From Bacteroidota bacterium (lineage in GTDB: Bacteria > Bacteroidota > Ignavibacteria > UBA10030 > UBA8401), in NCBI GenBank assembly GCA_008933835.1, contig WBUG01000001.1, forward strand, positions 1-64,000: 64,000 nt of DNA. Reading direction: 5' to 3'. The position numbers were made by a program, and so were the translations under genes. The notes beneath the pieces were generated by a model. It was not told where the DNA came from. It worked only from the letters and a program-made list of their open reading frames with translations, and did no database searches. This document shows, piece by piece, positions 35,412 through 51,160 of the stretch (position 1 is its first letter; each line of letters opens with the position of its first letter).

Positions 35412-35429
35412 CGGGAGGAACGGACCGCT

Positions 35430-35450
35430 CCGGGGCCGATGCGGCCCCGG
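35430..35450. terminator. GC-rich hairpin between convergent genes
   Basis: A 9-bp stem CCGGGGCCG/CGGCCCCGG with a 3-nt loop between the GT9 stop and the reverse-strand thioredoxin stop. No T tract, so termination efficiency is uncertain. Confidence 0.45.
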
Positions 35451-35465
35451 GCGTTCCGCCGAAAC

Positions 35466-35972
35466 CTACCGCTTCACCCCCTTCTCCGCGAGGTACTGGT
35501 CGAACTTCTTCTTTTCGTAGTGGTTCTCCCCGATGAACGTGATGACGTGCAGGAACATCGGCGCTTCGGAGTACCCCGGCAGGAGCGTGATGGGTTCGCC
35601 GGAGCTCTTCAGGAAGAGCGTGGCAGGGTATCCGTTCACCCCCATCCCCTGTGAGAACTCCGCGGCGGAGACCTGCTGTCCGTCGTAGCTCACCGGCGGG
35701 TCCTTCTCCGGATTCAGTTTGATGAGCACGTAGTTCTTCCGCAGATACTCCTGCACCGCTTTGTCCGAATACGTTCCGGCGTCCATCTTCTTGCACCAGC
35801 CGCACCAGTCGGTGTACACGTCGATGAGCACCTTCTTCCCGCTCTGTTTCGCCTCTTTCATCCCCGCATTGAACGATTTCCATTCGATCCCTTTCCCGGA
35901 TCCGGTCTTGCCCTGCGCCGCAGCGGGTTGCACGAGCATGAGCGCCAAAACGAACAGCACGATCTGTTTCAT
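35466..35972 (-). CDS. Periplasmic thioredoxin-fold protein (CGWC)
   Basis: 168 residues. Signal about 20 residues (MKQIVLFVLALMLVQPAAAQ). Thioredoxin fold with active site DWCGWCKKM and the conserved cis-Pro region GYPATLFL. CGWC-type single-domain proteins act as periplasmic thiol reductases or isomerases, or in cytochrome c maturation. GAAGGAGACC precedes the ATG. It is the last gene of a ten-gene reverse-strand operon and is separated from the GT9 gene by 66 bases, so it may also have a promoter of its own, though none is obvious. Confidence 0.85.
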   Translation of the reverse strand: MKQIVLFVLALMLVQPAAAQGKTGSGKGIEWKSFNAGMKEAKQSGKKVLIDVYTDWCGWCKKMDAGTYSDKAVQEYLRKNYVLIKLNPEKDPPVSYDGQQVSAAEFSQGMGVNGYPATLFLKSSGEPITLLPGYSEAPMFLHVITFIGENHYEKKKFDQYLAEKGVKR

Positions 35973-36038
35973 GGTCTCCTTCGGTTGGTGGTGTGATGTT
36001 CCTGTAGGATGCAACGAACGGGCGGAAGGATTCGTTCC

Positions 36039-37058
36039 TCAGCCGCGGGCGAGGCTCCGGTCCACGGAGGAGAGAACGGTCTCCAGCGATGTACCGTCCA
36101 GCGGGCACACTTTCGGGTCGCCCGGGCATTCGTTCTGACAGTACGAAGGGACCGGGAGGATGACGTCGGCGTTCCGGCCGAGCGGGCCCCAGAGTGCGGG
36201 GGAACAGGCGGTCAGGGGGCAGAAGAGCGCCACGGTCGGCACGTCGAGCGCGGCGGCGATGTGCAGAGTGCCGGTGCTCGGTGTGATGAGGAGGGAGAAG
36301 CATGACGTGACGGCGAGGAGCCGACGCAGCGGCGGCGCATCAAGGAGCACGGTGCCGTTGATGCCCTCGAGGGAGGCGGCTTCGGTGCCGCCCGGCATCC
36401 CGGTATTGATATAGAGCTGATACCGTGCGGCAAGACGTTCGGCCAGTTCACGGTACCGTGTGATCGGCCAATTGGGTGCGGAGTTCTTGCTGACGGGATT
36501 CAGTCCGATGAGCGGCTTCGACAGATCGATGCCCCGTTCTTCGAGCCATCGCCGGGCTTCCGCGCGCTCCGCGTCGGTGAGGAAGAGCTCCGGATGGAGG
36601 TTCTTAGTGACGACGCCGATGCGGCGTCCGAGGTCCATCACATAGTCCGCTTCATGCCGGAGCGGGATGTACTTCCGGCGGCTGACGCTCTTCGTGCCGG
36701 TGAGGAGCTGGTAGAGCTTGCCGCCGACGCCGATGCGTGTTCCGATGCCCGCCCAGAACATCATCCACGCGTGCCGTTCCCGCGGCAAAGGCATCAGTCC
36801 GACCGTGTACCGCTCCGAACGGAGCCGACCCACCTGCCTCCAGAAACCGGGCCATCCCGCATCGGCGCCCGACGGATCGTCCACGATGATGGAATCGACG
36901 TGCGGATTGTGCCGGAGCAGCGGTTCCGAGGAGGGACCGACCATCACCCCGAGATGACTGTCGGGAAACGTCCGTTTCACTTCTCGGATGAGCGGCGTCG
37001 TCAGGATGACGTCGCCGATGCGGTCCGGCCGGATGATGAGGATGCGCCGGCGGCTCAT
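36039..37058 (-). CDS. Glycosyltransferase family 9 (heptosyltransferase-like)
   Basis: 339 residues, GT-B. N-terminus RILIIRPDRIGDVILTTPLIREV is diagnostic for family 9. Late motif LLITPSTGTLHIAAALDVPTVALFCP is the donor site, here TPSTG in place of NDxG. A terminal Cys group (CQNECPGDPKVC) is present. It overlaps the GT4 gene upstream by 4 bases (ATGA). Part of the cell-surface glycan operon; donor sugar not deducible. Confidence 0.87.
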   Translation of the reverse strand: MSRRRILIIRPDRIGDVILTTPLIREVKRTFPDSHLGVMVGPSSEPLLRHNPHVDSIIVDDPSGADAGWPGFWRQVGRLRSERYTVGLMPLPRERHAWMMFWAGIGTRIGVGGKLYQLLTGTKSVSRRKYIPLRHEADYVMDLGRRIGVVTKNLHPELFLTDAERAEARRWLEERGIDLSKPLIGLNPVSKNSAPNWPITRYRELAERLAARYQLYINTGMPGGTEAASLEGINGTVLLDAPPLRRLLAVTSCFSLLITPSTGTLHIAAALDVPTVALFCPLTACSPALWGPLGRNADVILPVPSYCQNECPGDPKVCPLDGTSLETVLSSVDRSLARG

Positions 37059-38086
37059 TCGAACGCCTTCCGGTACATCGCCAGCGTCTTCTCGGCCACC
37101 CGGTTCCAGAGATACTCCCTCCCGATGTGCTGCTGCAGAGCGGTGCCTCTTCCGCGTTCGAGCGCCTTCTCGATCCCCCGCCGGATCCCCTCGGGGTCCC
37201 CCGGTTCCACGTACTCCGCCATATCGAGGAAATACTCCTTCGTTCCGCCGTGCGGCGTGATGACGATGTTCGCCCCGGCCAGTCCCGCCTCCAGCGCCGC
37301 GATGCCGGGCGTTTCGAAGAGGGAGGGGAGCGCGAAGACGGAGGCGCCGGCATACGCCGAGGCGAGCATCTCCGAATCGTTCGCCAGGCCGGGGATGATG
37401 AGGATGTGCTTCGCCTCCTTCGCTTCGTCGAGACAGCGCCGGGCGTACGCGGAATCGGTCACCTGTCCGATGATGACGGCGGGATGATCGATCCGCTTCA
37501 GCGCCCGGATGAGGTTCAGGGCGTTCTTGCGTTCCGGACCGATGTGGCCGACGGAAAGGATGTACCGCTCCATGCCGTACGTCTTCCGGAACAGTGCCGG
37601 ATCGCCGTGCCGGAAACGCTCATCGACGCCGTTCGGGACCGTCTCGATGCGTGAACGGGGGATGCCCATGCCGTCGGCGATGAGCCGCGCCTCCGCGTCG
37701 GTGTTCGGCGACACGATGCGGGACCAGTCGCAGATCTGCCGCGTGAACTCGTAGTTCGTCCAGATGCCGGTGCGGAACCGTTTCGCCGCCGCGTTCACCG
37801 CCAGCGTCGCGCGGATGACGAGGGGAGAGTGCCGGGTGAAGAAGATGGAGGAGGTGACGAACGGGATGCGGTACTGATGGAAGACGCTCGCAAGATGGAA
37901 CGTGCCGAGGTTCGCGGAGAAGAGATGGACGGGCCCGGTCTCATCGGCACGGAGCGGTTCCCATGGATTCAGAAGCCGGACGTCGGTACCGAGCGCCTCC
38001 AGCTCCGCTTTCGTCCGCAGCATCTGCACGCGCGGTCCGCCGTGGATGATGGAGAGCGATTCATAACAGGCGAATGTGATCCTCAT
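37055..38086 (-). CDS. Glycosyltransferase family 4
   Basis: 343 residues, GT-B. Start MRITFACYESLSIIHGGPRVQ shows the GT4 nucleotide-binding loop. VPNGVDERFR, YILSVGHIGPERKN and the acidic pair in SLFETPGIAALEAGLAG (E-x7-E) are the family signature for retaining enzymes. ATG at 38086 overlaps the upstream stop (ATGA). The product would add a sugar to a lipid-linked or LPS-like acceptor at the cytoplasmic face. Confidence 0.9.
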   Translation of the reverse strand: MRITFACYESLSIIHGGPRVQMLRTKAELEALGTDVRLLNPWEPLRADETGPVHLFSANLGTFHLASVFHQYRIPFVTSSIFFTRHSPLVIRATLAVNAAAKRFRTGIWTNYEFTRQICDWSRIVSPNTDAEARLIADGMGIPRSRIETVPNGVDERFRHGDPALFRKTYGMERYILSVGHIGPERKNALNLIRALKRIDHPAVIIGQVTDSAYARRCLDEAKEAKHILIIPGLANDSEMLASAYAGASVFALPSLFETPGIAALEAGLAGANIVITPHGGTKEYFLDMAEYVEPGDPEGIRRGIEKALERGRGTALQQHIGREYLWNRVAEKTLAMYRKAFE

Positions 38087-39606
38087 GCCGTTGCCTTGAT
38101 CCACCAGTCGAGAATGTCCTGCAGGTGACGCCGCAGGGAGAATTGACGCGTCCGTTCTGCTCCCGATGCCATCGCCGGTGTGCGCACCGGATTGCGGGTG
38201 AGAACTCGGGTGTCGATGGATTCGCTCGCCGGTACCACCGATTCGGTGCCGTCCGGGAACGAGATCCGGACGTGATGCTGCTCGTCCGCCGGCCCGGTGC
38301 GGAGTACGTTCGCTCCGTCCCAGCGGTACTCCGGAATGGATCCAAGCCGCGCTTTCCACCAGCCGGCGTAATCGCGGTAGGAGAGCATCGGAAGTCCGAG
38401 CGATTGAATATAGGAAAAAACACGTTCAATCACGCCGTTATGCCGGTGCGTGGGATGATGGTAGAGACAGACCGGTTCCGCCGCCGCCACCTTCCGGTCG
38501 ATGACCCCGAGGTAGTAACGGAACATCGCATCATCGTCCATTCGGGCCCGGAGCATGGAACCGATGCAGACGGGGTGGATGGGGAGCTGCAGCACCGCCG
38601 AAGGAGCGCCGGAGATGAGCGGATAGGACGGTAGGGCGTCATAGTCGTACCCGAACTCCGATGAGTACGTGAAGCCGCACTGTTCGACGGCTCTGCCGAT
38701 GTTCTCGTTCCATTCGCCGGTAGGGGCGGTGACGCCGGCAGGAGACATTCCTGCCTGCCGCATCGCTTTGGCGGCCCGTGCAAAGTTCGCGGCGTTCCGT
38801 GCGGCGCCGGGAAAGATCTCATGCTCATAACAATGAACGGCGGTCTCCTGCCGTCCGAACTCCGAGAAATGACGGAGCCAGGGTTCATGACTTTTCACAT
38901 CCAGGAACCAGGTCGCCGGGACACCGTACCGGTCGGAGAGAGTGCGGATCTCCTCCACCTGTTCCTTCGTTCCCCGGTCGGAGTCGACGCGGAAAGTGAA
39001 AAGGGAACGCGCCCCGCCGGGAAAATACCACGCGTGCAGGAACGGCACGCCGCGCCGGTGATGGAGCTCCTCGAGCAGGGAGTGGACGATGCGCCGGACC
39101 GGTTCCTTCGTGGCGCGGGCGACCCGTTCGTTCGGAAGCCGTTCGCCATCCGCGAGGAAGTCGCGGCGAACGATGGAGCGGTCCGCGAACAGCGCCGTGA
39201 CATCGATGCCCAGATATCCGGCGTATCCCCGACCGATCGGGTCGACCGTTGCCGGCGTCCCTTCGTCGAAGAGCATCACGCGCTGATGCAGGTCGAGGAC
39301 AGAATGGAAGCGTGCGTTCGGAACGGAACCGGGGAAGAGGGCATGGACCGCGAGTCGGCGGTTGCAACGCTGGTCGATGGCGATGCCCGAAGCGGTCGTG
39401 TACAGGACCGCGCCTCCGCCGTGCATGTACGCTGTCAGGTCGGCGGACCGTACCGTCCCGTTCGCGATGATGACGCTGAACTCCATTGGATCGAGCGCTG
39501 TATCACTGTCCGGGACGCTCCACGGAACGCCGGTCTGCTGCAGCAGCGTGATCCATGCGGCGTCGTGCCGGAGGAGGGCGGCGTGGATGCGGACCGGGGT
39601 GTTCAT
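38083..39606 (-). CDS. Polysaccharide deacetylase-like (NodB fold) protein, divergent
   Basis: 507 residues. The middle (about 200-330) resembles a NodB domain: FTFRVDSDRG at 203-212 corresponds to motif 1 but keeps D-S-D rather than D-D, and HCYEH (His258, His262) is the H-x3-H metal pair. The first 190 residues look like a GATase-like Rossmann fold (IIANGTVRSADLTAYMHGGGAVLY). The last 150 residues include HHPTHRHNGVIERVFSYI. Both ends overlap neighbours by 4 bases. A deacetylase acting on a surface glycan is likely, but the altered motif could mean a different hydrolase or loss of activity. Confidence 0.7.
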   Translation of the reverse strand: MNTPVRIHAALLRHDAAWITLLQQTGVPWSVPDSDTALDPMEFSVIIANGTVRSADLTAYMHGGGAVLYTTASGIAIDQRCNRRLAVHALFPGSVPNARFHSVLDLHQRVMLFDEGTPATVDPIGRGYAGYLGIDVTALFADRSIVRRDFLADGERLPNERVARATKEPVRRIVHSLLEELHHRRGVPFLHAWYFPGGARSLFTFRVDSDRGTKEQVEEIRTLSDRYGVPATWFLDVKSHEPWLRHFSEFGRQETAVHCYEHEIFPGAARNAANFARAAKAMRQAGMSPAGVTAPTGEWNENIGRAVEQCGFTYSSEFGYDYDALPSYPLISGAPSAVLQLPIHPVCIGSMLRARMDDDAMFRYYLGVIDRKVAAAEPVCLYHHPTHRHNGVIERVFSYIQSLGLPMLSYRDYAGWWKARLGSIPEYRWDGANVLRTGPADEQHHVRISFPDGTESVVPASESIDTRVLTRNPVRTPAMASGAERTRQFSLRRHLQDILDWWIKATA

Positions 39607-40580
39607 CGGTTCAGCCGTCCGATTAGGTCCGTCAACGCGTCCTGACGGCGTTGATGGGGGTAGAGCTCCATGATGCGGTCCCGTCCCGCATCCGAAACCG
39701 GAGCGTCCAGCGCGGCACGGAGCGCGGTGACCGCGCGTTTCGTATTGCCGAAGGGGATGACGGCGCCGGTGCTGCCGACCGCTTCCGGTACGCCGCCGGT
39801 CTCGGTCGCGACCGGCGTGCAGCCGCAGAGCATCGCTTCACAGAGAGCGTTCGGCAGTCCTTCGCGGCGCGACGGCTGCAGGTACACTTTCGCCCGGCAG
39901 TACCGCTCTTTCAGCGCTTCATGCGGGACGGCATCAAGGACCTGAACGTTCGGCGGGAATGTGAAGGAGCCCCGCAGCCTCTCCGAGACCCCCACCAGGA
40001 CGAAACGGATGTCCGGTGCAGCGGCGGCGATCTCGGCGAGGAAATCGAGTCCTTTCACCATACCGCGGTTCACTTCAGAACACTTCGCTACGGTCAGCAC
40101 CAGCCGTTCCTTCTCCGGTCCGGGCGTCCAGGCGCCGGGATCGAATCCGGTCGGTACCACCTCGATGTTGCCGCCGTCATATCGGGCCAGACGGATGGCG
40201 TCCTCTTTCAGTGCCGGAGCGACCGCCAGCACGGCGTCCGCCCGTCGGAGGGCGTAGCGCACGAGCCGGGCGCGCCACGCACTGTTCCAGATACCGTACT
40301 TCCACTGGGGCATCTGGGCGACGTCGACACCGCCGAGGACGATGACGCTCTTCTTCCGCAGCAGCCGCGCGCCGAGCACGAGCAGGGCCGAGTACGTCGA
40401 AGCGAACCATGTGAAGGTGATGTCGCAGCGCGGAAGGAGGATCGCGTAGTGAAGCAATGCCGTGAAACCGGAACGGATGACGGTGGTGACGGGATACCGG
40501 GATGCGAGGAACTCCGCATCGGTGCGGATGAACGGGGTGGAGAAGGTGGCGGTGAACAGTATGTGCGGTCGTGCCGGCAC
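39603..40580 (-). CDS. Glycosyltransferase family 4
   Basis: 325 residues. VVPTGFDPGAWTP, LVLTVAKCSEVNRGMVKGLDFL and the acidic motif RREGLPNALCEAMLCGCTPVATETGGVPE identify a GT4 enzyme. GTG start at 40580, 11 bases after the PorV-like stop; a proper upstream ATG is absent. It overlaps the deacetylase-like gene by 4 bases. Part of the glycan operon. Confidence 0.9.
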   Translation of the reverse strand: MPARPHILFTATFSTPFIRTDAEFLASRYPVTTVIRSGFTALLHYAILLPRCDITFTWFASTYSALLVLGARLLRKKSVIVLGGVDVAQMPQWKYGIWNSAWRARLVRYALRRADAVLAVAPALKEDAIRLARYDGGNIEVVPTGFDPGAWTPGPEKERLVLTVAKCSEVNRGMVKGLDFLAEIAAAAPDIRFVLVGVSERLRGSFTFPPNVQVLDAVPHEALKERYCRAKVYLQPSRREGLPNALCEAMLCGCTPVATETGGVPEAVGSTGAVIPFGNTKRAVTALRAALDAPVSDAGRDRIMELYPHQRRQDALTDLIGRLNR

Positions 40581-40591
40581 CGGTCTCTCCG

Positions 40592-41473
40592 TCAGAGGAG
40601 GAACGAGAGCGACACGGTGTGGGTCGACTGCAGCGCGCCGGTGAACGGGACGAACGCATAGTCCACCGCGAGGCCGGCATACCGGAGACCGATGCCGCCC
40701 GTCAACGAGCGGGATTCATATCCCGTCTGGTACCCTCCGCGCAATGCGACCATGCCGTCATACTCCGCTTCCGCGCCGAAGTTCAGATGCGTCGCATCGT
40801 CGTCGAAGGTCTTCGCGACGTCGAACGCTCCGGTGAGCGCGAACGAGCTCCCCGCGGTCGACCGCCAGGAGGCGCCGAAGCGGAGCGCGGCCGGAAGCGC
40901 GCTGGGCTGGTCGCGCAGGTCGCTCATGGAACCGATGTTCTGCAGGCTGACCCCGGCCGTAAGCGAGCCGTTCAACCGGTAGAGGAGTCCGGCGTCCAGT
41001 CCGTACCCCTGTGCTTCGTCCGTGAAGATCTTCTCGAAGAGGAACCGGGCGCTCATTCCCGCCCATAGGTCGTCCGTAAGGCGGAGCGCGGCCGAGCCGC
41101 CGATGGCGATGTTCCGGGCGCTGAACGTCCCGGCCGCTTCGCCGGGCATCGTCCGCAGTTCGATGTCGTCCACCGACACGGACTGGAGCGAGACGCCGAA
41201 CCGCACGCCGCCGGCGGCGGCCGATGCGGCGAGATGATTGGCGGTGGTGCCGGCGAACCAGGCGCGGTGCATGAGCTGGACTTCGTCGCGGGCGGCGGCG
41301 AGGCCCGCGGGGTTGTAGTAGGAGGCCGCGAGGTCGCCGGAGACCGCCGTGAACGCTTCACCCATGCCGAGGGCGCGTGCGGAGGTGCCGATCTTCAGGA
41401 ACGACATTCCGGTGGAGACCGACTGGGCGGAGAGCGGCGCGGCGATGAGCAGGATGATCAGCAGATGTTTCAT
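40592..41473 (-). CDS. PorV/PorQ-family outer membrane protein
   Basis: 293 residues. Signal about 17 residues (MKHLLIILLIAAPLSAQ), then SFLKIGTSARALGMGEAFTAVSGDLAASYYNPAGLA, the family hallmark, and barrel strands to HTVSLSFLL. It overlaps the preceding barrel gene by ATGA. PorV-type proteins serve T9SS cargo transport and surface attachment. Here the gene sits with a T9SS-type propeller protein upstream and glycosyltransferases downstream, which ties cargo handling to glycan synthesis by location. Confidence 0.83.
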   Translation of the reverse strand: MKHLLIILLIAAPLSAQSVSTGMSFLKIGTSARALGMGEAFTAVSGDLAASYYNPAGLAAARDEVQLMHRAWFAGTTANHLAASAAAGGVRFGVSLQSVSVDDIELRTMPGEAAGTFSARNIAIGGSAALRLTDDLWAGMSARFLFEKIFTDEAQGYGLDAGLLYRLNGSLTAGVSLQNIGSMSDLRDQPSALPAALRFGASWRSTAGSSFALTGAFDVAKTFDDDATHLNFGAEAEYDGMVALRGGYQTGYESRSLTGGIGLRYAGLAVDYAFVPFTGALQSTHTVSLSFLL

Positions 41474-42417
41474 CACGGGTTCACGGTCAGGGTGATGACA
41501 TGGGCGGCGAAGAGGCCGTACGGTTCGACGACGTACGCATAGGTCAATGACGGCCGCCAGGTTTCGGCGAAGTCCGGACGCAGTGTGATGCCGAACGAAG
41601 GATGCGCCTGCGATGCGTCGTCCAGGTCCCACCCGTCCAGGCCGGCGCGTACCGTCACCGCTTCGTGCAGCGTATACTCGGCGCCGAACCGGACGATCTG
41701 CTGACCGCCGACGGTCCGTTCGTACTCGGCGGCAGCGACGCCGCGCCGGTCCGGTAGCGTATAGGAGAGCGCGACGATCTTTCGGAACGGGAAGTCCTGC
41801 GTGGTGGAGTTGCCCGCCGTGCCGTAGATCTTCGATGTCTCCCATTTGTACTTGGAATTGATGTCACGGAACGCCGCCGCGACGGTCCATTCCTCGCCGA
41901 GGGCGTAGGTGATGCCCGCATCGATGCCGAGCGTGGTGCTGGTCACGTCTTCGAAGAGCGAATGATGGAAGATCTTGGCGGAGAGTCCGATGACCAGTGA
42001 GCGGATGCGCAGGGCGAAGGAGAGCGACGCCATGTTCTCGGAGGTCGAATACTGCTCTGTGGGGAATCCGTCGATGTCCCGGCCGTCGATGTCCGAGACC
42101 CCGGCGTTCAGTCCGGCAAGGGAGACGACCGCATTCGTGTCCAGCGGAAGGGTGACGTAGAGCGCATTGTGCGAGCGGTCGAGCGACAGGGCGGTGTAGG
42201 AGAGCGAAGCGACACGCTGACGCTGGTAGAGCAGCACCGAGGGGTTGTAGAAGCCGTTGAGGTCTCCCGTGCGCACGGCGGTCATGGCGTTGCCCATGCC
42301 CATGCCTCGTCCCCCGAACCCCATGCGCATGAACGCGCCCGGCGTGCCGGCGGTCTGCGCCGACGCAGAACAGACGGCGGCGAGCAGCAGGAGAAGATGG
42401 AGTTTATTGGATGACAA
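41473..42417 (-). CDS. PorV/PorQ-like outer membrane protein, Gly/Met-rich N-terminus
   Basis: 314 residues. Signal about 21 residues (HLLLLLAAVCSASAQ), then GAFMRMGFGGRGMGMGNAMTAVRTGDLNGFYNPSVL, a variant of the PorV/PorQ start. Barrel-like alternation follows. The only start giving the signal is TTG at 42417, which overlaps the upstream gene by 14 bases. A separate subfamily from the downstream PorV-like protein. Function inferred as T9SS-related. Confidence 0.72.
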   Translation of the reverse strand: MSSNKLHLLLLLAAVCSASAQTAGTPGAFMRMGFGGRGMGMGNAMTAVRTGDLNGFYNPSVLLYQRQRVASLSYTALSLDRSHNALYVTLPLDTNAVVSLAGLNAGVSDIDGRDIDGFPTEQYSTSENMASLSFALRIRSLVIGLSAKIFHHSLFEDVTSTTLGIDAGITYALGEEWTVAAAFRDINSKYKWETSKIYGTAGNSTTQDFPFRKIVALSYTLPDRRGVAAAEYERTVGGQQIVRFGAEYTLHEAVTVRAGLDGWDLDDASQAHPSFGITLRPDFAETWRPSLTYAYVVEPYGLFAAHVITLTVNP

Positions 42418-43948
42418 GGATCTTCCCCCAGCGAGGTTCGCTGTCGTTCACGGTGACCTGGTAGAAATAGACGCCGTTGGAGGCGATGTCGCCCCGGTCG
42501 TCGCGTCCGTCCCACAGTTCGTCGAACTCCGGTCCGCCGCTGCGGATGGCATTGTGGACGACCGTTCGGACGAGGTGCATGGCGAAATCGAAGATGCGGA
42601 GGGTCACCACGGCCGACGGCGCGCTGCCGATGGAGTAATGGATCCGCACCTGTTCGTCGTCCGGAGCGAACGGATTGGGATAGGCATAGGTGGCGGAAGG
42701 GACCGGGAGCGGCTGTGCGGGATGCAGCACGGACCAGGCGGCGCCGAAATCGTTCCCGTTGTCGTGCGTGCTCACCACGCCGTCGATTCCGCCGAACCAC
42801 GCGGTGCCGTCGAGCGCCGCCGCCGAGTAGAACTTCTTCTGCGTGTACCGCCGGTGCGTGGCGGCGTCATAGATGGTCCCGGCCTTGAGCCACGTTTCGC
42901 CGAGGTCGGCGGAGCGGAAGATGCCGTCGTCCGTCGGAACATAGACGATGCCGCCGTTGAAGCCGAAGTTGTGCGCGAACTGTCCGAGGAGCGATCGTTC
43001 CCAGGTGGCGCCGCCGTCGCGCGTCATGCTGACCCCGCGCACTTCGGTGTTGTCCGTGGCGTTCACCGTCGCCGCCCAGATGAGCGTGCCGGCGGTGGTG
43101 GGATGCTTCGCGAGCGCGACGACGAAGTTGCCGGAGATCGGTTTCGCCTGGTTCTGTTTGGTGAAACGCACCCAGGACCTTCCGCCGTCGGTGCTCTTGT
43201 TTATACCTCCTGCGGTGCCGATCCAGACCGTGGTGTCGTTCTCGGCCAGCACCGAGAAGGCGCGGTGGTTGAGGTTGTTCTGCAGCTGCAGTGCGCCGCC
43301 GGAGGGGGAGAGGTCGAAGACGAGCGAATCGTCCGGCGAGATGGAGTTGAGGTTGTCCGGCGGGATGATGACCCGCTCCCACGTCGCGCCGCTGTCGGTG
43401 CTCTTCCGCACCATTCCGGCGAACGAGGTGATCCAGACGGCGTCATTCGTCAGCGCGATGTCGTACGTGACGTTGTTGATCGCGGTCGTGATACCGAGCG
43501 CACGGATGAAGCTCTTGTCATTGAAATAGAGCGTGTCGACGTTCCGGAGGTCCACCGGCTGCGGCATGCTGCGCCATGTTTCGCCGCCGTCGGAGGAGTG
43601 CCGCAATCCGCTCCCTTCCGGCAGCGAGGATCCGTCCCGTTCCACCGTATGTGCGGTCGCGACCCAGATGTTCCGTCCCCGCACCGCGATGGCCGAAATG
43701 TCCTCCGTGCCGAACTCGGGAGTGTTGTAGTAGTTCTTCCACGTTGCGCCGCCGTCGATGGAGCGGGAGAGTCCCTTGCCCGTGCCGAGCCAGAGCGTGT
43801 CGCCCGCGACCACGATGTCGATGACGCTGTTGCTCAACGGTGCGGCGTCCGTTCCCGAAGCGGAGAGAAGATACCCTTTGGGCAGCCGCGGCTGTCCGAC
43901 CGCGGCCGTCAGAACGGCCAGGAGCAGGATGAGGAGGGTGCGCATCAT
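42404..43948 (-). CDS. BNR/sortilin-like propeller protein with C-terminal sorting domain
   Basis: 514 residues. Signal about 18 residues. Asp-box type repeats SIDGGATWKNYY, SSDGGETWRSM, STDSGATWERV, STDGGRSWVRF, TRDGGATWERS and SADLGETWLK define a BNR/sortilin-like beta-propeller. The last 90 residues (YAYPNPFAPDDEQVRIHYS, LRIFDFAMHLVRTV, DRGDIASNGVYFYQVTV, GKILVIQ) form a FlgD/T9SS-type Ig-like sorting domain. Secreted and probably surface-attached. It overlaps the lipoprotein gene by 4 bases. Ligand unknown. Confidence 0.85.
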   Translation of the reverse strand: MMRTLLILLLAVLTAAVGQPRLPKGYLLSASGTDAAPLSNSVIDIVVAGDTLWLGTGKGLSRSIDGGATWKNYYNTPEFGTEDISAIAVRGRNIWVATAHTVERDGSSLPEGSGLRHSSDGGETWRSMPQPVDLRNVDTLYFNDKSFIRALGITTAINNVTYDIALTNDAVWITSFAGMVRKSTDSGATWERVIIPPDNLNSISPDDSLVFDLSPSGGALQLQNNLNHRAFSVLAENDTTVWIGTAGGINKSTDGGRSWVRFTKQNQAKPISGNFVVALAKHPTTAGTLIWAATVNATDNTEVRGVSMTRDGGATWERSLLGQFAHNFGFNGGIVYVPTDDGIFRSADLGETWLKAGTIYDAATHRRYTQKKFYSAAALDGTAWFGGIDGVVSTHDNGNDFGAAWSVLHPAQPLPVPSATYAYPNPFAPDDEQVRIHYSIGSAPSAVVTLRIFDFAMHLVRTVVHNAIRSGGPEFDELWDGRDDRGDIASNGVYFYQVTVNDSEPRWGKILVIQ

Positions 43949-44781
43949 TGGATGTGGATCCGTTTCCTGAGCGTGTCCGAGACGGCGCCGGAACGGTCGA
44001 CCGCAAAGAACAGGAAATCCCTGTAGGTGTTCTTCTGCGTGGTGTTGAAAATGGGGATGGTCAGCGTGTACCGTCCGTCCGCCGCGATGCTGTCCCCGCT
44101 GACGGTGCCGAAGGTCGGTGTCGGGAGGGCGCTGCCGTCGTCATAGAGCGGGAAGACCCCCGCCACGGAACCGTCCGGCCGGACGGAGCGGAGGAGGACC
44201 GACGTGATGTCGCCCGCCCCTTGAGAGTCCGTCGCAGTCAGTGACACGCGCACGAGGTTGGGAACGTCGCCGGAGGGGACCGCCACCGTGTCCTGCAGCG
44301 AGAGCGCCGTCACCGCGGGGGGATTGTTGGCGGTGTTGACGATGCGGAGCGGTGCCAGAGCCGTCGCGCCGGGCGAACCGTCGCCGCCGCTGCAGGTGAC
44401 GGCGAGGGTGTACCGTCCGACCGTCCCTGCGGGGATGGAGAAACGGGCGCGCGCCGTGAACGTACTGTCGTTCGCCGCCGCGTCCGGAGCGACACCGTCG
44501 TTTCGGAACGAACCGGCGGTGACCGTGGCGCCGTCAACGTCGATGAGCTCATAGTGTACCGACGTACCGCGCGGCGTGGGGAGACCGATCGAGACGAAGA
44601 GGGACACGGAAGTGTCCACGGCTGCGGACGCGGGAAAGCCTGCGGTGTTGATGAGCGACGGAGCGAGCGAGACCGACGTGAGCACGGGGGGGGACGGGCG
44701 GGGATCGACCGTCACGCGCGAATCGATGTCGCACGACATCAACAGCAGCACGGAGAGCGGTATGAGCAGTCGGATGGTCAT
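43945..44781 (-). CDS. Exported lipoprotein with Ig-like domains
   Basis: 278 residues. Lipobox LLMSC gives lipid-modified Cys17. The remainder is Pro/Ser/Thr/Asp-rich beta structure: an FN3/Ig-like pair around 60-150 (GTVGRYTLAVTCSGGD) and 160-270 (DGRYTLTIPIF). No enzyme motif. It is the first gene of the downstream operon. The ATG is preceded directly by the T tract of an intrinsic terminator and has no Shine-Dalgarno, so expression must depend on reading through that terminator. Function unknown. Confidence 0.72.
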   Translation of the reverse strand: MTIRLLIPLSVLLLMSCDIDSRVTVDPRPSPPVLTSVSLAPSLINTAGFPASAAVDTSVSLFVSIGLPTPRGTSVHYELIDVDGATVTAGSFRNDGVAPDAAANDSTFTARARFSIPAGTVGRYTLAVTCSGGDGSPGATALAPLRIVNTANNPPAVTALSLQDTVAVPSGDVPNLVRVSLTATDSQGAGDITSVLLRSVRPDGSVAGVFPLYDDGSALPTPTFGTVSGDSIAADGRYTLTIPIFNTTQKNTYRDFLFFAVDRSGAVSDTLRKRIHIQ

Positions 44782-44785
44782 GAAT

Positions 44786-44812
44786 AAAAAAACCGAGGCT
44801 TTATCCTCGGTT
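44786..44812 (-). terminator. Intrinsic terminator abutting a start codon (candidate attenuator)
   Basis: Reverse strand: AACCGAGG-ATAAAG-CCTCGGTT followed by five more T residues. Its T tract ends 4 bases before the lipoprotein ATG at 44781. No promoter can fit between the terminator and that gene, so the operon must be transcribed through it. Confidence 0.85.
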
Positions 44813-44854
44813 CAGGGTAAAGCGCGTTGCCATAGAATCATTGTGAACGGACAT
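44801..44854 (-). CDS. Possible 17-codon leader peptide
   Basis: A reverse-strand ATG at 44854 opens the frame MSVHNDSMATRFTLNRG and stops at a TAA that lies inside the loop of the terminator at 44786-44812. A ribosome finishing this frame would cover the terminator stem. There is no Shine-Dalgarno, so translation is uncertain. A second frame, MILWQRALP (44812-44841), overlaps it. Confidence 0.25.
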   Translation of the reverse strand: MSVHNDSMATRFTLNRG

Positions 44855-44912
44855 ACAGCGGTGATGCGTCGGTATCGAACGTTCCTATGGCAGAGCGCTT
44901 CGTTGGTGAATG
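44812..44912 (-). ncRNA. Candidate structured leader RNA or small RNA
   Basis: Predicted transcript from the promoter at 44919-44947, starting near 44912 and ending at the terminator. A long closing stem joins 44820-44835 with 44885-44900: AAGCGC/GCGCTT and TGCCATAG/CTATGGCA, with a 2x2 internal mismatch. The enclosed 49 nt would hold the variable or ligand-binding part. No known riboswitch or SRP/6S signature is recognised. Confidence 0.5.
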
Positions 44913-44918
44913 ATGTGC

Positions 44919-44947
44919 ATGATAGCGAAAAATCGCCGGACTGTCAA
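44919..44947 (-). promoter_or_regulatory. Strong sigma70-type promoter of the leader RNA/glycan operon
   Basis: Reverse strand: -35 TTGACA (44942-44947), exactly 17 bp, -10 TATCAT (44919-44924). The -35 starts 3 bases after the site-2 protease stop. Confidence 0.75.
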
Positions 44948-44949
44948 GT

Positions 44950-45885
44950 TCAAAGACCGAAGCCGAACGGCGTCGGCGCGAAACTGACCGCGAGGATGCC
45001 GAAGGTGATCCATCCGGTGAGCATCCGGTTCGGGTCCAGCGGCGTCTCGTCCTCCACCGGCGGATGGTGGAGCTTGATGATGAAGAACAGAATCACCGCC
45101 CAAAAGAACCATCCGAACCAGCCGACGGACGTCTCGATCCCCGCTTCCGGCAGCCAGCCGAGCACTCCTAATGTCAGGATGAGGACGAACGCACCGCGGG
45201 CGATGTGCCGGTGCCGTTCGCCGAACATGGCGTACGCGATGTGACCGCCGTCGAGCTGTCCCACCGGCAGCAGGTTCATCGCGGTGACGAGCAGTCCGAA
45301 CCAGCCGGTGATGAGGTAGGGGTAGTGGTACATCTCGCTCATGGGAGGAACGAAATCGTTCATCGGATCGGCCAGCGTGAGGGAGAGGAAGTCGTACAGC
45401 AGCGTCCGTCCGAACGTCAGCGCGCCGTCGACGGGCTGGGGGGCGGTGAAGTAGTCGGGATGGATGGCGGTGATGAAATCGCGTCCCGGCAGATGGGTGA
45501 AACCGTAGAAGAGCACGAGCAGGGTTGCGGCGAATCCGGCGAGCGGACCCGCGGCTCCGATGTCGAACATGGCGCGCTTGTCCGGGACGGGCGTCGTGGT
45601 GCGGATGACCGCGCCGAACGTTCCGAAGCTGAGGAAACCGGGAATGAACGGCGAGGGGATGTAGTAGGGGAGCGTCGCGTTCACGCCGTGGTACCGCGCG
45701 GCGAAGTAATGGCCGAACTCATGGCACGTGAGGATGAAGAGGAGCGACAATGAATACGGGAGTCCCGCAGCGAAATTGTACAGGTCGAACGGGTCCAGAT
45801 TGAGCCAGGCGACGCCCGCCACCGTCGTGGTGAAGAACGTGGCGGCGAAGAGCCCGCCGTTGATGAGGATGGTCTTGATGGTCAC
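44950..45885 (-). CDS. Site-2 protease family zinc metalloprotease
   Basis: 311 residues, polytopic. Zinc motif CHEFGH (His55, Glu56, His59) and the second-site NLLPVGQLDGG (204-214, Asp212) are both intact, as in S2P-type intramembrane proteases. About six hydrophobic segments. S2P enzymes cut anti-sigma factors or remnant signal peptides within the membrane. Start is GTG at 45885, one base after the upstream stop. It is the last gene of the upstream operon. Its substrate is not known; no anti-sigma factor gene lies nearby. Confidence 0.88.
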   Translation of the reverse strand: MTIKTILINGGLFAATFFTTTVAGVAWLNLDPFDLYNFAAGLPYSLSLLFILTCHEFGHYFAARYHGVNATLPYYIPSPFIPGFLSFGTFGAVIRTTTPVPDKRAMFDIGAAGPLAGFAATLLVLFYGFTHLPGRDFITAIHPDYFTAPQPVDGALTFGRTLLYDFLSLTLADPMNDFVPPMSEMYHYPYLITGWFGLLVTAMNLLPVGQLDGGHIAYAMFGERHRHIARGAFVLILTLGVLGWLPEAGIETSVGWFGWFFWAVILFFIIKLHHPPVEDETPLDPNRMLTGWITFGILAVSFAPTPFGFGL

Positions 45886-45886
45886 G

Positions 45887-46705
45887 TCAGAATCCGATGT
45901 TCATGCCGAAGCCGGAGTACTCCTCCCGGCGGTCGTAGTATTCGCCATGGATGCTGTTGCCGGTGTGGTGGATGAGGAAAAGTTCTGTCCCGCGGCCGTT
46001 CCAGGTGCCGAATTTCACCCCCGCCTGCGCTTCATGACGGGGGCGCAGTCCCGCCGCGCTGAACTGGTACGCGGCGAACGGGTGCAGCCACGGCGTGACG
46101 GAGGCGTGAGCGTCGCCGCCGAGCGAGACACCGAACGCCGGAATGGAGGTCGGGTCCGTATGCCAGAGGTAGAGCGCGCCGACATGGATCCGGTACCGAT
46201 CCGCCGGTTCGATCGCGACGGTGAGGTCGAAGAACTCGCGGCTGTAGATGCGGGGGCTCAGTCCGTCCTTCCACTGCGAGGCGGTATTGTCGAAATGGCC
46301 GTCCACGAAGTGGGCGCTGATGTGGCTGAGACGGAGCCGGGCGGAGAGGATGCCGGCCGCGGTCGTGTCCCGGTACGACGCGTTCAGACCGAACAGATAG
46401 TCCACCGCGTCGACGGGGAAGTGGAAGTTCTTCTCCCCGCGGAGCAGGGTGTAGGTGAAGAAGTCCGCGCCGAAGGTCAGCGGCGGTGCGCCGCCGTCGA
46501 ACCGGTACTGCAGCAGGTCGATGGAGTTGCCGATATCGAGCCGCAGCCGGTTGTCGTTCGCGTGCCAGATGAGTCCCACCCTCGGTTCGAAGGTGTTGGC
46601 GACGAGCGGCCGGAAGACGAGGGGACCGTCGTACAGACCGAGTCCGCTCTCCTGCGCCGGAACGGCGGCGGAGATGAGGAACAGCAAGGCGATGATGCGG
46701 TTCAT
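45887..46705 (-). CDS. Outer membrane beta-barrel protein of unknown function
   Basis: 272 residues. Signal about 17 residues (MNRIIALLFLISAAVPA), then alternating strands (RLRLDIGNSIDLLQYRF, YRIHVGALYLWHT) and a C-terminal Phe (YSGFGMNIGF), typical of BAM substrates. It may belong to the DUF1207-like barrels; I cannot confirm that. It overlaps the PHP phosphoesterase gene by 4 bases, so it is co-transcribed with the glycan enzymes. Confidence 0.65.
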   Translation of the reverse strand: MNRIIALLFLISAAVPAQESGLGLYDGPLVFRPLVANTFEPRVGLIWHANDNRLRLDIGNSIDLLQYRFDGGAPPLTFGADFFTYTLLRGEKNFHFPVDAVDYLFGLNASYRDTTAAGILSARLRLSHISAHFVDGHFDNTASQWKDGLSPRIYSREFFDLTVAIEPADRYRIHVGALYLWHTDPTSIPAFGVSLGGDAHASVTPWLHPFAAYQFSAAGLRPRHEAQAGVKFGTWNGRGTELFLIHHTGNSIHGEYYDRREEYSGFGMNIGF

Positions 46706-48312
46706 TCCGGTGTGATCCAGATTGGGTTGGTGTGACAGAAGCCGTCGCGGTCGGTCCCTTCGCCGTCCGTCGTCTCGGCTTCCGCTCTAATATAGGAAAA
46801 GGCGTCGAGAGAAACCCGCTCGCCGACGGTGTGCACGGAGAACGGATCGGTGAACGACCGCTGTTCGGACAGGACGCGTTCCGTTCCCCCCACCGTGCCG
46901 AGGACGATGCGCAGCGACGTGAAGCGGCCGAACTCCGCCGTCGAACGCGCCACGGTCTTCACCACGATGCTGCGAGCGCGGACGGTGTCGCCGATGCGGC
47001 CGAGTCCGTGCGTCTCCGTCTCGACCTCGATGCCGAGTGCGGGACCGGAGGTGATGACGGAGCGTCCCGAGGCGAGCGCGTCGACGATGTTCCGTTCCGT
47101 GTTGAGGGAACGGACCAGCGTCCGCATCCGACCGAAGAGCTGGTGCGGGCGTTCGGCGATGTACACGAACGGTATGAAGACCTGGATGAACCGGTTGAAG
47201 TTCCCGTGGGCGTCGTTGCCGGCCGCGATGAACGTCCGGCGTCCTTCGAGAAGGAACCGGCGCCACACCGCAAGTCCGTTCCGGAACGGGCGGTTCCGTT
47301 CCCCGTTGAGGATCTGGATGCCGTGCAGACCGGGAACCGCCATGTCGTCGGCGGACCATTCCCCGCGGCCGAGCAGCAGCCGCTGCAGGAACGGCGCCTC
47401 TTCGGTCGGATGCGCGGCGTAGGCGGCCGTGCCGGGTTCCATCCCGGCGATCACCGAGGCGATGGTGTGCTCGCAGTCGAAACGGAACCATTGCTCCGCA
47501 CCGTCGCCGGAGCCGTGGAAGAACTTCCGCGTGCCGAGGAGGAGGAAATGCACCGACCGCCCCGCGCCGTTCTCGCACGAGACCTCCTCGCCCCGGACCA
47601 CCGTGACGTCCTTCGAGCGCCGGTTCACCTCGTCCACCTCGCGCTGGAACGCGTGCCACTTCGGTATCGCCGGATCGTTCTGAAGATAATCGTCCACGCG
47701 GTCGTCAAGATCGTACGAATGGTCCGTGGCGCAGAAGAAGGAGAGTCCCATCGCGGCGGAGAGCTCCGCCGCTGCGGCGATGGGGGAGCCGAACTCCACC
47801 TGGTCCTCGGTGTACGTGGAATGGGTGTGCACGTCACCGGTGATCCATCCGGGCAGGGAGGGGAGCGGCGTTCGGGAACGGTACACACGGAGCGGACGCT
47901 TGGTGGTGGTGCGGAGGTTGTTGTTCCGGACCGCACGCCGTTGTCCGCCGCGCAGCAGCGTGACCGTCACGTCAAGGTCGAACATGCCGAAGCGCTCCGC
48001 CAGCGCTCCGTCGAAACGAAGCGAGTGGATGTGCCACCACCAGTGCGAGCGGACGGGGATGGGGGAGGGCGGGACGAACGATTCCGTGTGCAGTTCCGTG
48101 CCGCCTTGCCGGAGCGTGAACGTCATCTGTTCGATCTCCACGGGATACCGGTCGGCGTCCTTGATGAGCACCATCACCGGGAGCGGCGCTCCGGGATCGA
48201 GCCGGTGCGGAGCGTCCGCAAGCACCTCCGGTTCGTTCATCCGGAGGAGGCTCACGAAGTACTTGAAGCGGTAGTGCACTTCGGCGTAGGCAAGGACGGG
48301 AAGCAGCATCAT
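46702..48312 (-). CDS. PHP-domain phosphoesterase-like protein (CehA-type)
   Basis: 536 residues. PHP metal motif GDVHTHSTYTED at 159-170, CATDHSYDLDDR, the third-cluster GEEVSCENG and IAAGNDAHGNFN are arranged as in CehA/McbA-type PHP hydrolases. Residues 10-150 form an N-terminal beta-rich domain of unknown role. N-terminal hydrophobic residues (MMLLPVLAYAEV) could be a short membrane or export element but not a clear signal peptide. Likely a metal-dependent phosphoesterase or hydrolase. Substrate unknown. It starts 3 bases after the GT gene stop. Confidence 0.75.
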   Translation of the reverse strand: MMLLPVLAYAEVHYRFKYFVSLLRMNEPEVLADAPHRLDPGAPLPVMVLIKDADRYPVEIEQMTFTLRQGGTELHTESFVPPSPIPVRSHWWWHIHSLRFDGALAERFGMFDLDVTVTLLRGGQRRAVRNNNLRTTTKRPLRVYRSRTPLPSLPGWITGDVHTHSTYTEDQVEFGSPIAAAAELSAAMGLSFFCATDHSYDLDDRVDDYLQNDPAIPKWHAFQREVDEVNRRSKDVTVVRGEEVSCENGAGRSVHFLLLGTRKFFHGSGDGAEQWFRFDCEHTIASVIAGMEPGTAAYAAHPTEEAPFLQRLLLGRGEWSADDMAVPGLHGIQILNGERNRPFRNGLAVWRRFLLEGRRTFIAAGNDAHGNFNRFIQVFIPFVYIAERPHQLFGRMRTLVRSLNTERNIVDALASGRSVITSGPALGIEVETETHGLGRIGDTVRARSIVVKTVARSTAEFGRFTSLRIVLGTVGGTERVLSEQRSFTDPFSVHTVGERVSLDAFSYIRAEAETTDGEGTDRDGFCHTNPIWITPE

Positions 48313-48315
48313 GGG

Positions 48316-49392
48316 TCAGACCTTCAGGAGTGCGTCGATGTGGGCGCGCAGCGCCGCCCGGTCATGGTCGCGCGGTGTGAAGCCGGTGAAGGATTCGGAC
48401 GCGGCCAGTGCCCGGACCAGGTCGAAGTCGTTCTGTTCTTCGGAGTACGCGACGTTCTGTCCGCGCAGGGAACGGGCAAGGTGCTCCTGTTCGGTCTGCT
48501 GCGGCGTGGGGATGAAGATGGCGCGGGCGCCGGTGTGCGACAGGTCCATCACCGTACTGTATCCGGGCCGCGAGACGACCATGCGCGCCGAGGCGATGGC
48601 CGCGGAGAGTTCGGCGGCGTTCATGCTGTTCACCATCAGCACGTTCGGTGCCAGACGCATCGTCACGTTCTGCTCCGGTTTCCCCCGGACGATGACGCAT
48701 TGCAGGCCGGTCCGTTTCATCTGCTCCGCGAGCCGTTCCTCCAGCAGGGTCCGCTGCGGTTCCGGTCCGGAGAGCACCGCCAGCACGTCGATCTCCTTCG
48801 CGCGTTCCGTCCGCTGCAGCCGGGACAACGGTCCGATGTAGTGCGCGTTGCGCGGCAGCCGGCGAGAGTGCGAGAGGGGACCGCCGAGCGACGGTTCCTC
48901 CCGGTGGTCCGGAATCCACACTTCATCGTAGCGTTCGCAGATGCGCCGGTTCACCGAGGAGACGAGCGCTTGTCCGAACGCGATGTGCGGCGGGAGGAGG
49001 ATGTTCAATTGATGGACGAGGTACACTGAGCGTGCATGCCGGGAGTACGCCCCGAACCGGTTGTCGGAAATGACCGCATCGATGCGGTGCAGGCGTACGA
49101 GCGTTTCGAGGTACCGATGTTCCCGCCGGAACGCCTGATACAGCGACGGCAGCTGACGGAGCATGGAGCGGAGCATGCTCTCGTTCACCGGGTACTCGAT
49201 GTCGTACCCGGGGAAGGTGACCGCTTGGAGCGACGGGAACTCGCGCCGGAGCAGATTGAGCGGCCGCTTGTCCGCCGCGATGATGACCTCGGCTCCCCGT
49301 TCGAGCAGTTCCGTGATGACGGGGATGCAGCGGGTCGCGTGTCCGAGTCCCCAATCCAGCGGTGCCACCAGGATGCGTTTCGAACGGCTCAT
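48316..49392 (-). CDS. GT-B glycosyltransferase (MurG/GT28-like)
   Basis: 358 residues. The start RILVAPLDWGLGHATRCIPVITEL carries the GHATR element of glycosyltransferases that act on UDP-sugars, and the C-terminal part (SRPGYSTVMDLSHTGARAIFIPTPQQTEQEHLA) has the donor-side GxS plus the Q-x2-QEHLA motif of the GT28/MurG clan. ATG at 49392 overlaps the deacetylase stop (ATGA); an in-frame ATG at 49407 is a weaker alternative. It probably decorates a lipid or surface polymer. Confidence 0.8.
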   Translation of the reverse strand: MSRSKRILVAPLDWGLGHATRCIPVITELLERGAEVIIAADKRPLNLLRREFPSLQAVTFPGYDIEYPVNESMLRSMLRQLPSLYQAFRREHRYLETLVRLHRIDAVISDNRFGAYSRHARSVYLVHQLNILLPPHIAFGQALVSSVNRRICERYDEVWIPDHREEPSLGGPLSHSRRLPRNAHYIGPLSRLQRTERAKEIDVLAVLSGPEPQRTLLEERLAEQMKRTGLQCVIVRGKPEQNVTMRLAPNVLMVNSMNAAELSAAIASARMVVSRPGYSTVMDLSHTGARAIFIPTPQQTEQEHLARSLRGQNVAYSEEQNDFDLVRALAASESFTGFTPRDHDRAALRAHIDALLKV

Positions 49393-50009
49393 CGGATGAC
49401 CCCGCATTCGAATCCCTTCGCCGCGATGCCGGGAATGGTGAGGTCCAGCACTTCGCCGATGCGCGCCGCCGTCAGGTCGTTGTCATGGAAGACGAGGATG
49501 GAACCGCGGCCGAGCCGCGAGAGCGCGGCCGCGGCGGAGACGCGGGGGTCGCGGTTCCGGAAGTCGCCGGTGAGGCAGCTCCACATCACCAGCAGCATAC
49601 CGAGCTCCTTCGCGGCGGCGATGGTGTTCCATGAGAAGAACCCGAACGGCGGACGGAACGTCCGCGGCGCCGTACCGGTGATGCCGCGGATCAGCTCGGC
49701 GGTGCGGAGGATCTCCTCTCTCGTGCGCGCGCGAGAGAACGCGAGCAGGCGGGAATGGTTGAACGCATGGATGCCGATAGCGTGCCCTTCGCGGACGATG
49801 CGCCGCACCAGTTCCTCGTTCCCCGGGATGTTCCGGCCGGTCAGGAAGAAGGTCCCCCGGACACCGTGCCGCTGCAGCGCATCGAGCACCGCGGGCGTGG
49901 CGGAGGGATGCGGTCCGTCGTCGAACGTGAGGAACACCTTCCGTCCGGGCATCCGCCAGAGCAGGGAGGGGAAGAGGAGGCGGTGAAGCGTGCCGGTGTG
50001 CGTGATCAT
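49389..50009 (-). CDS. Polysaccharide deacetylase (NodB family)
   Basis: 206 residues. Motif 1 TFDDGPHP (28-35) supplies the catalytic Asp30 and the metal-binding Asp31; motif 2 HAFNHS gives His81 and His85. RPPFGFFSWNT is motif 3 and LVFHDND is motif 5. Removes N-acetyl or similar groups from an amino sugar. N-terminus may be a weak membrane element. ATG overlaps the GT2 stop by ATGA. Confidence 0.92.
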   Translation of the reverse strand: MITHTGTLHRLLFPSLLWRMPGRKVFLTFDDGPHPSATPAVLDALQRHGVRGTFFLTGRNIPGNEELVRRIVREGHAIGIHAFNHSRLLAFSRARTREEILRTAELIRGITGTAPRTFRPPFGFFSWNTIAAAKELGMLLVMWSCLTGDFRNRDPRVSAAAALSRLGRGSILVFHDNDLTAARIGEVLDLTIPGIAAKGFECGVIR

Positions 50010-51160
50010 CGCGCCGCCTCCTTCGTCATCGTCCGTTCCTTCCATTCGAACGACAGGAAGTATCCCCCGACGGTGGAGACGAGGACGAACGGGATGTGCA
50101 CGAGCGCCGTCGCGGCGAAGTACCGCATCGCCTGCGGGACGCCGATGAGCGCGGTGAGCCGCCGCATCATCAGGAAGTCGACGCCGAACTTCGCGGCGGC
50201 GGTGAGCCATGGGACCGTGCTCCAATGGAGGAACGTCATCGGCACGGAGACGAACAGGAGAATATAGAGGATGAACGTGCTGATCATGAAGAACATCATG
50301 TACGGCGGGTAGTACGCGGTCTGTCCCACCCAACGGAACCGCTGGTGCAGCATCTGCCGGAACGTCGCGGCCGGCGCGGTCTCCACCGTCGCGTCGGCGC
50401 CGTAGAGGAAGCGCGCGGACCAGCGTCCGTCCCGAACGATGGACTGCGCGAGCAGCGAGTCGTCCCCGGTGTTGATGTGCCGGAGCCGCTCGAACCCTCC
50501 CGCAGCGTCGAACGCGCTGCGGAGGAACGCCATGTTGCTGCCGTTGGCCACCAGCACCCTTCCGCGTCCGACGGCACCCGCCGCGATGGAGGTGTAAGAA
50601 AGGAAGTCGAGCAGCTGTACTCCGGCGAAGAGGGGAGAGAGCCGGGGATCGCGGCCGAAGAGCGTCACACCGGTGACGACGCCGACGGTACCGTCGAAGG
50701 CGGACGCGATGGAGCGCAGCCAGCCGCGCGGCACCATGCAGTCCGCGTCGGTCGTCGCGATGACCGGCGCGGAGGATCGCTGGATGCCGTGCATCAGTGC
50801 GCGGACCTTCGGCGAAGCGGTGTCGGTGTAGGAATCCACCGGGACGACGATGATGCGGACGGAGGCGCGTTCCGCGAAGGCTTTCGCTGCGGCCGCGGTG
50901 CGGTCGGTGGAACCGTCGTCCACGACGATGACCGTGATGCGCTCATTCGGGTATTCCTGAGCGTCGAGCGAAGCGAGGCAGCGGACGATGGTTTCCTCCT
51001 CATTGCGAGCCGGCACGACCACGGTGATCTCCGGCGTTGCGTCGGAACGACCGGCCTCGAGACGGGTGAGTCCCGCGTAGAAATAGAGGATGCGGTGAAC
51101 GTAGATCCCGCCGAGGAGCAGGAGCAGCGGAGCGAGGTATGTGAAGGGCGATTCTGTCAT
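50006..51160 (-). CDS. Membrane glycosyltransferase family 2
   Basis: 384 residues. An N-terminal helix (about 10-30), a GT-A domain with VVVPARNEEETI, VVDDGSTDRT, TTDADCMVPRG (DxD) and GDDSLLAQ plus QRFRW (Q-x2-RW) near 270, and several C-terminal helices. This is the processive-type or polyprenyl-acceptor GT2 layout. It is paralogous to the GT2 at 52098. Overlaps both neighbours by 4 bases. Confidence 0.92.
   Translation of the reverse strand: MTESPFTYLAPLLLLLGGIYVHRILYFYAGLTRLEAGRSDATPEITVVVPARNEEETIVRCLASLDAQEYPNERITVIVVDDGSTDRTAAAAKAFAERASVRIIVVPVDSYTDTASPKVRALMHGIQRSSAPVIATTDADCMVPRGWLRSIASAFDGTVGVVTGVTLFGRDPRLSPLFAGVQLLDFLSYTSIAAGAVGRGRVLVANGSNMAFLRSAFDAAGGFERLRHINTGDDSLLAQSIVRDGRWSARFLYGADATVETAPAATFRQMLHQRFRWVGQTAYYPPYMMFFMISTFILYILLFVSVPMTFLHWSTVPWLTAAAKFGVDFLMMRRLTALIGVPQAMRYFAATALVHIPFVLVSTVGGYFLSFEWKERTMTKEAAR

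Follow-up and report, generated by a model that had tools for sequence, protein, structure and literature searches.

Transcription attenuators, taken as a general class, have a promoter of their own, an upstream hairpin for whose 3' strand part of the terminator is an alternative partner, and a terminator placed immediately before the first gene. We describe here a locus with this layout from the Ignavibacteria (Bacteroidota), a lineage known from metagenome assemblies. Unlike described attenuators, its leader matched no known sensor family, leader peptide, T-box or aptamer, and its candidate antiterminator is moderately supported. Operon-specific autoregulatory leaders, such as those of ribosomal protein operons, offer a second parallel, since they too consist of a hairpin with a conserved loop found at about one locus per genome before the same gene, and since related lineages can use either termination or translation as the output; the operon considered here, however, encodes envelope- and secretion-related proteins rather than known RNA-binding proteins, and its leader has no Rfam counterpart. 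Factors of the RfaH, LoaP and UpxY type typically target long envelope or glycan operons. LoaP is described as one such antitermination factor in PMC12691694. The locus resembles the leaders on which such factors act in its long envelope operon, leader hairpin and early terminator, and differs in that a single NusG-domain gene was found in the genome.

The open-access literature yielded nothing on leader RNAs of this locus, which lies between an M50 protease gene and a lipoprotein gene, or of Ignavibacteria, and little seems to have been written about leader RNAs in the deep-branching Bacteroidota, which are largely uncultured. In its layout the element resembles an attenuator, and we treat it as a new family of leader RNAs. 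Very probably it is a genuine on/off leader of an envelope operon that has not been described before, and we think it likely, on the sequence comparisons set out below, that the segment comprises the promoter and cis-acting 5' leader of a lipoprotein/propeller/PorV operon and works by transcription attenuation. If this is true, the new RNA family marks a regulated envelope operon encoding a lipoprotein, a propeller protein, PorV/PorQ-family proteins and glycosyltransferases.

Promoter, hairpin and terminator before the lipoprotein operon

The leader segment occupies positions 44784-44947 on the reverse strand of the window (the whole 64,000-nt stretch of DNA analysed), where it provides a promoter and a 5' leader upstream of the lipoprotein gene (Table 1). 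The promoter matches the sigma-70 consensus at 11 of 12 positions and is the only sigma-70-like site predicted within 35,000-52,700, for which shuffled sequences lead one to expect 2.3. In the minimum free energy (MFE) fold the closing stem pairs 44901-44895 with 44825-44819 and 44892-44883 with 44837-44828; the 129-nt leader as a whole reaches -45.2 kcal/mol (z = -5.9, with none of 200 shuffles as good), and z is still -4.8 once the terminator is left out. The terminator stem is 9 bp long (44813-44805 with 44798-44790) and is followed by a T run that extends to 44786, so that the U run of the transcript stops 4 nt short of the ATG at 44781.

Table 1. Positions of the leader elements and neighbouring genes in the window.
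Feature	Position	Strand	Remarks
Upstream M50 (site-2-type) membrane metalloprotease gene	44950..45885	-	Pfam PF02163
Sigma-70-type promoter, TTGACA-17-TATCAT	44919..44947	-	RNA start predicted at about 44912; -35 and -10 kept at the same place in family relatives
Unpaired 5' end, CATTCACCAA	44903..44912	-	Corresponds in the alignment to the relatives' (U)CAACAA(C)AA stretch; CAACAAA-like stretch also in other clades
Closing stem P1/P2, 5' strand	44883..44901	-	MFE fold and compensatory changes in 5 pairs
Conserved motif GUUCGAUAC, 5' side of apical loop	44872..44880	-	UYGNUAC across the family; UUG(C/U)UAC in other clades
Closing stem P1/P2, 3' strand	44819..44837	-	MFE fold and compensatory changes
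S, GCUUUA, candidate antiterminator strand	44818..44823	-	Would pair with S' in the terminator loop; moderate support and nascent-RNA energies
S', UAAAGC, candidate partner of S	44798..44803	-	Terminator loop/3' arm
Intrinsic terminator, GAACCGAGG-AUAAAG-CCUCGGUUU plus U run	44786..44813	-	Core ACCGAG..CUCGGU plus U run in nearly all family members
First gene, lipoprotein with choice-of-anchor X domain	43945..44781	-	NCBIfam NF041940; in most family genomes an orthologue follows the M50 gene
Remaining operon genes	35466..43948	-	Domain matches

Downstream of the leader lies a same-strand run of nine genes (35466-44781), on whose far end opposite-strand genes converge. Behind the lipoprotein gene the run encodes a BNR/sortilin-type propeller with a FlgD_ig domain, two PorV/PorQ-family proteins, two GT4 glycosyltransferases, a polysaccharide deacetylase, a GT9 enzyme and a DsbH-like thioredoxin. 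We found no terminator between the M50 gene and the leader promoter, no room for a promoter between the terminator and the ATG, and no predicted promoter within the nine-gene run. A search of the region against Rfam 15 returned no match at the gathering score, its best sub-threshold hits being chance-level small-RNA terminators, and the short open reading frames in the window's leader (for example MATRFTLNRG followed by a stop) are not shared by relatives, a similar frame occurring in G009 only.

An earlier, sequence-only reading of this DNA had already picked out the near-consensus promoter, the long closing stem, the terminator with its T run ending 4 bases before the ATG and the lack of space for a promoter beyond it, and had seen no known riboswitch motif; all of this was borne out, with the stem coordinates agreeing to within 1-2 nt. 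The ten-gene operon that it proposed came down to nine genes.

Conservation in the window's family and a candidate antiterminator

Relatives of the leader were located by BLAST and with a covariance model. Across the 22 genomes of the family, in which the M50 gene is present in 20 and the lipoprotein gene in 19, the order M50-leader-lipoprotein is held in most, and the leader stretch was read in 20. Seventeen of these 20 leaders possess the promoter, the hairpin and an ACCGAG..CUCGGU-type terminator (with variant arms in G006). Across the family all three elements stay in place while the sequence of the stem varies; within the window's own group the terminator is nearly invariant, loop included. 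Hairpin z-scores range from -1.1 to -5.2 in 17 of the 18 members possessing a hairpin. That of G002 (L057) is weak and no better than shuffles, and this genome has no terminator; it sits inside the terminator clade, an apparent case of terminator loss. Two small-genome members, G014 and G008 (L061 and L062), have lost the hairpin and keep promoter-like sequence as well as a terminator of the ACCGAG/CUCGGU type immediately ahead of the ATG.

In the first ten sequences aligned, the stem has 19 pairs with 88% of cells paired, and 5 of these pairs (10 cells) carry changes on both sides. The covariation score and the number of such cells exceed those of all 500 shuffles, which ignore relatedness, and controls with slid strands score lower. 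The covariation check across homologous loci that the sequence-only reading had proposed thus left that reading unrefuted. A covariance model built from ten sequences recovered two unseen relatives at the syntenic site, G007 (E = 1.5e-10) and G004 (7e-4), and matched G010, G012 and G005 weakly (E 0.02-0.4) at the right place. Each family genome has one convincing match to the family model. Away from the leader locus, G021:C1:397-515 gave a weak second match (26 bits, E = 0.05).

The terminator loop contains a sequence (S') complementary to one in the 3' strand of the closing stem (S). The S/S' sequences are GCUUUAU/AUAAAGC for the window's group, GACUGUU/AACAGUC in G007, GACUGCGU/ACGCAGUC in G004, GACUGC/GCAGUC in G010, G012 and G015, GAUUGC/GCAGUC in G006 and GACUGC/GUAGUC in G005; the pairs of G015 and G005 were read directly from the sequence, as the longest-helix search did not report them. 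The resulting S.S' helices are 6-8 bp long in most family members and fall into two main covarying types. Loops of class A (GAUAAAG) form a good helix only with S strands of that class (-6.3 versus -1.9 to -3.5 kcal/mol), and the swap tests tell apart only two or three S/S' types. No compensatory change in S/S' is seen among members of the window's own group, and an A-to-C substitution breaks the pairing in G011, G017 and G021. Against shuffled loops the window's S.S' is no better than chance (p 0.13), and p is at least 0.1 in about half of the 19 leaders. Given the three genomes that break the pairing, the window's p value and the limited reach of the swap tests, an S.S' antiterminator is plausible at most, with moderate support from these sequence comparisons.

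Calculated energies bear on how such a switch might operate. In the nascent RNA the gap between P1 and S.S' is 0.3-2.7 kcal/mol in 7 of 11 leaders, and in the full-length RNA the terminator is favoured by 8-17 kcal/mol, a combination that would suit a kinetic switch. We rejected an H-type pseudoknot of S with the intact terminator on geometric grounds, as no linker separates S' from the 3' arm; with steric constraints making such a pseudoknot unlikely, S.S' and the terminator are expected to be mutually exclusive. On the attenuation reading, the nascent leader would fold into the long hairpin and, with the hairpin closed, the terminator would form and halt most transcription before the ATG. 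Were the lower stem to open, its 3' strand S would become free to pair with S', which would delay or prevent formation of the terminator and let RNA polymerase continue into the operon. Regulation of termination is our inference, as is the role of the conserved loop motif UYGNUAC as the place where a regulator, whether protein, small RNA or ligand, would act; the motif offers a concrete handle for finding a trans factor.

Hairpins without a terminator in other clades

When 84,980 species genomes were scanned with an M50 alignment, 80 named loci came up, almost all of them in Ignavibacteria or other Bacteroidota/Chlorobiota. Many of the non-family loci have, between the M50 gene and the same lipoprotein gene, a hairpin that carries AUAGAnAnnUUGCUAC or GUUGCUAC on its 5' side and lacks a terminator, with an AUG, GUG or UUG start codon usually in or beside its 3' side. 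From the position of these start codons, the hairpin in other Ignavibacteria probably acts on translation. At L104, L114 and L132 the start at the hairpin opens a short frame of about 18-23 codons and the lipoprotein start lies further down, an arrangement in which translational coupling is possible. Within 200 nt of the stop codon of the M50 gene, the motif UUGYUAC is present at 14 of 75 non-family M50 loci (two of these occurrences being in coding sequence), compared with 1.9 in shuffles and 4 in a reversed control. Some of these hairpins are slight: 5 of the 13 non-family hairpins tested (L105, L113, L125, L126 and L132) are weakly better than shuffles or not better at all.

Loci of the terminator type group into a single clade of the M50 tree (support 88/83; 86% of bootstraps), the hairpin without a terminator occurs in three separate clades, and several clades lack any leader, their M50 and lipoprotein genes being nearly contiguous. 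The simplest reading would be an old hairpin that was lost several times and gained a terminator in the window's family. Homology between the family's hairpin and those of the other clades would rest on synteny and a short motif; independent origins are also possible, because the sequences resemble each other in the motif only and a single non-family hairpin is matched, weakly (E = 0.74), by the family model. The comparison suggests that control may be transcriptional in the window's family and translational in the other clades. If this is correct, one conserved hairpin is seemingly coupled to different outputs in sister lineages, and the effect of gaining a terminator could be traced on a tree. 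More tentatively, and with somewhat less than even confidence, we propose that these RNAs form a single Ignavibacteria leader family tied to one envelope/secretion operon, in which a factor reads the UYGNUAC loop and the output was swapped between start-codon occlusion and intrinsic termination during evolution of the class.

Competing explanations

The segment might instead be an independent gene for a small RNA of about 125 nt that acts in trans, with the operon read by ordinary leakage through its terminator. Its transcription unit is complete, with promoter and terminator of its own; the near-invariance of the terminator and its loop within the window's group would fit, as would G020, in which the promoter-RNA-terminator unit persists despite a longer and different spacer behind the M50 gene. 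We nevertheless regard this as unlikely, because within the family the leader always lies directly before the same lipoprotein gene and no convincing second copy was found elsewhere in the family genomes. The best argument for a cis-acting leader is the related hairpin of other clades, which has no terminator and overlaps the start region, the start codon being placed within or next to its 3' strand; a trans-acting RNA would have no need of such an overlap.

Less probable again is an unregulated promoter followed by a leaky terminator, which would set a low fixed level of operon expression or insulate the operon from the one upstream. No regulator has been identified, S.S' pairing is not kept in all genomes and the terminator is gone from G002, as this explanation would allow; a long, compensated hairpin with a loop motif would, however, be superfluous for a terminator of fixed strength, and the hairpin slot is retained in clades without any terminator.

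The sequence-only reading had left a choice between an undescribed attenuator and a riboswitch. Its attenuator part gained support: the leader is conserved and shows compensatory changes, it keeps its place before the same gene, and an alternative pairing is available that would break up the terminator. Its riboswitch part fared poorly. A small-molecule riboswitch would use the hairpin with its UYGNUAC loop as the aptamer, and it would account for a conserved motif adjoining a covarying stem and for two possible output platforms, terminator and start-codon occlusion, as is often the case in riboswitches. The element is essentially single-copy and confined to one envelope operon; since a riboswitch need not strictly occur more widely, this makes the explanation less likely without excluding it. 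It is also a simple hairpin with a short loop motif, it has no multi-branched aptamer core and no aptamer or Rfam match, and the loop beyond the motif is poorly conserved. We consider this explanation doubtful. In a class-wide pattern search, intergenic hairpin matches occurred only at the M50-lipoprotein locus among the contexts read; the pattern matches read away from it look like chance and lie mostly inside genes, and we rejected a regulon-wide riboswitch.

Trp-like peptide-coupled attenuation and processive antitermination by a NusG paralogue, which the operon's glycosyltransferases and its length as a typical envelope/glycan target would invite, are largely refuted and very improbable, as no short open reading frame is conserved among the 20 leaders examined and one PF02357 (NusG-domain) gene was found in the window's genome assembly. 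Single-copy occurrence at one operon, the lack of a conserved leader peptide and the single NusG gene together speak against a riboswitch regulon, against attenuation by a leader peptide and against a factor resembling RfaH or LoaP, all three of which we consider unlikely. The remaining candidates are a factor or RNA specific to this operon that acts at the conserved loop, and a leaky terminator that is not regulated.

6S and 6S-Flavo RNAs (RF00013 and RF01685) resemble the leader in being single long, irregular hairpins of roughly similar size. Unlike them, the leader is tied to one operon, and G007, which has the leader RNA, also has a separate 6S locus found by RF00013, so that we rejected 6S RNA as an identity; RF01685 gave no significant match. 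The 6S match in G007 (L025, G007:C142:59539-59782) is above the cut-off, and 6S RNA went unrecognised in most of the family, where it may be too diverged for the model. Elsewhere in the window, Rfam RF00005 identified two tRNA genes at positions 116-322 on the reverse strand.
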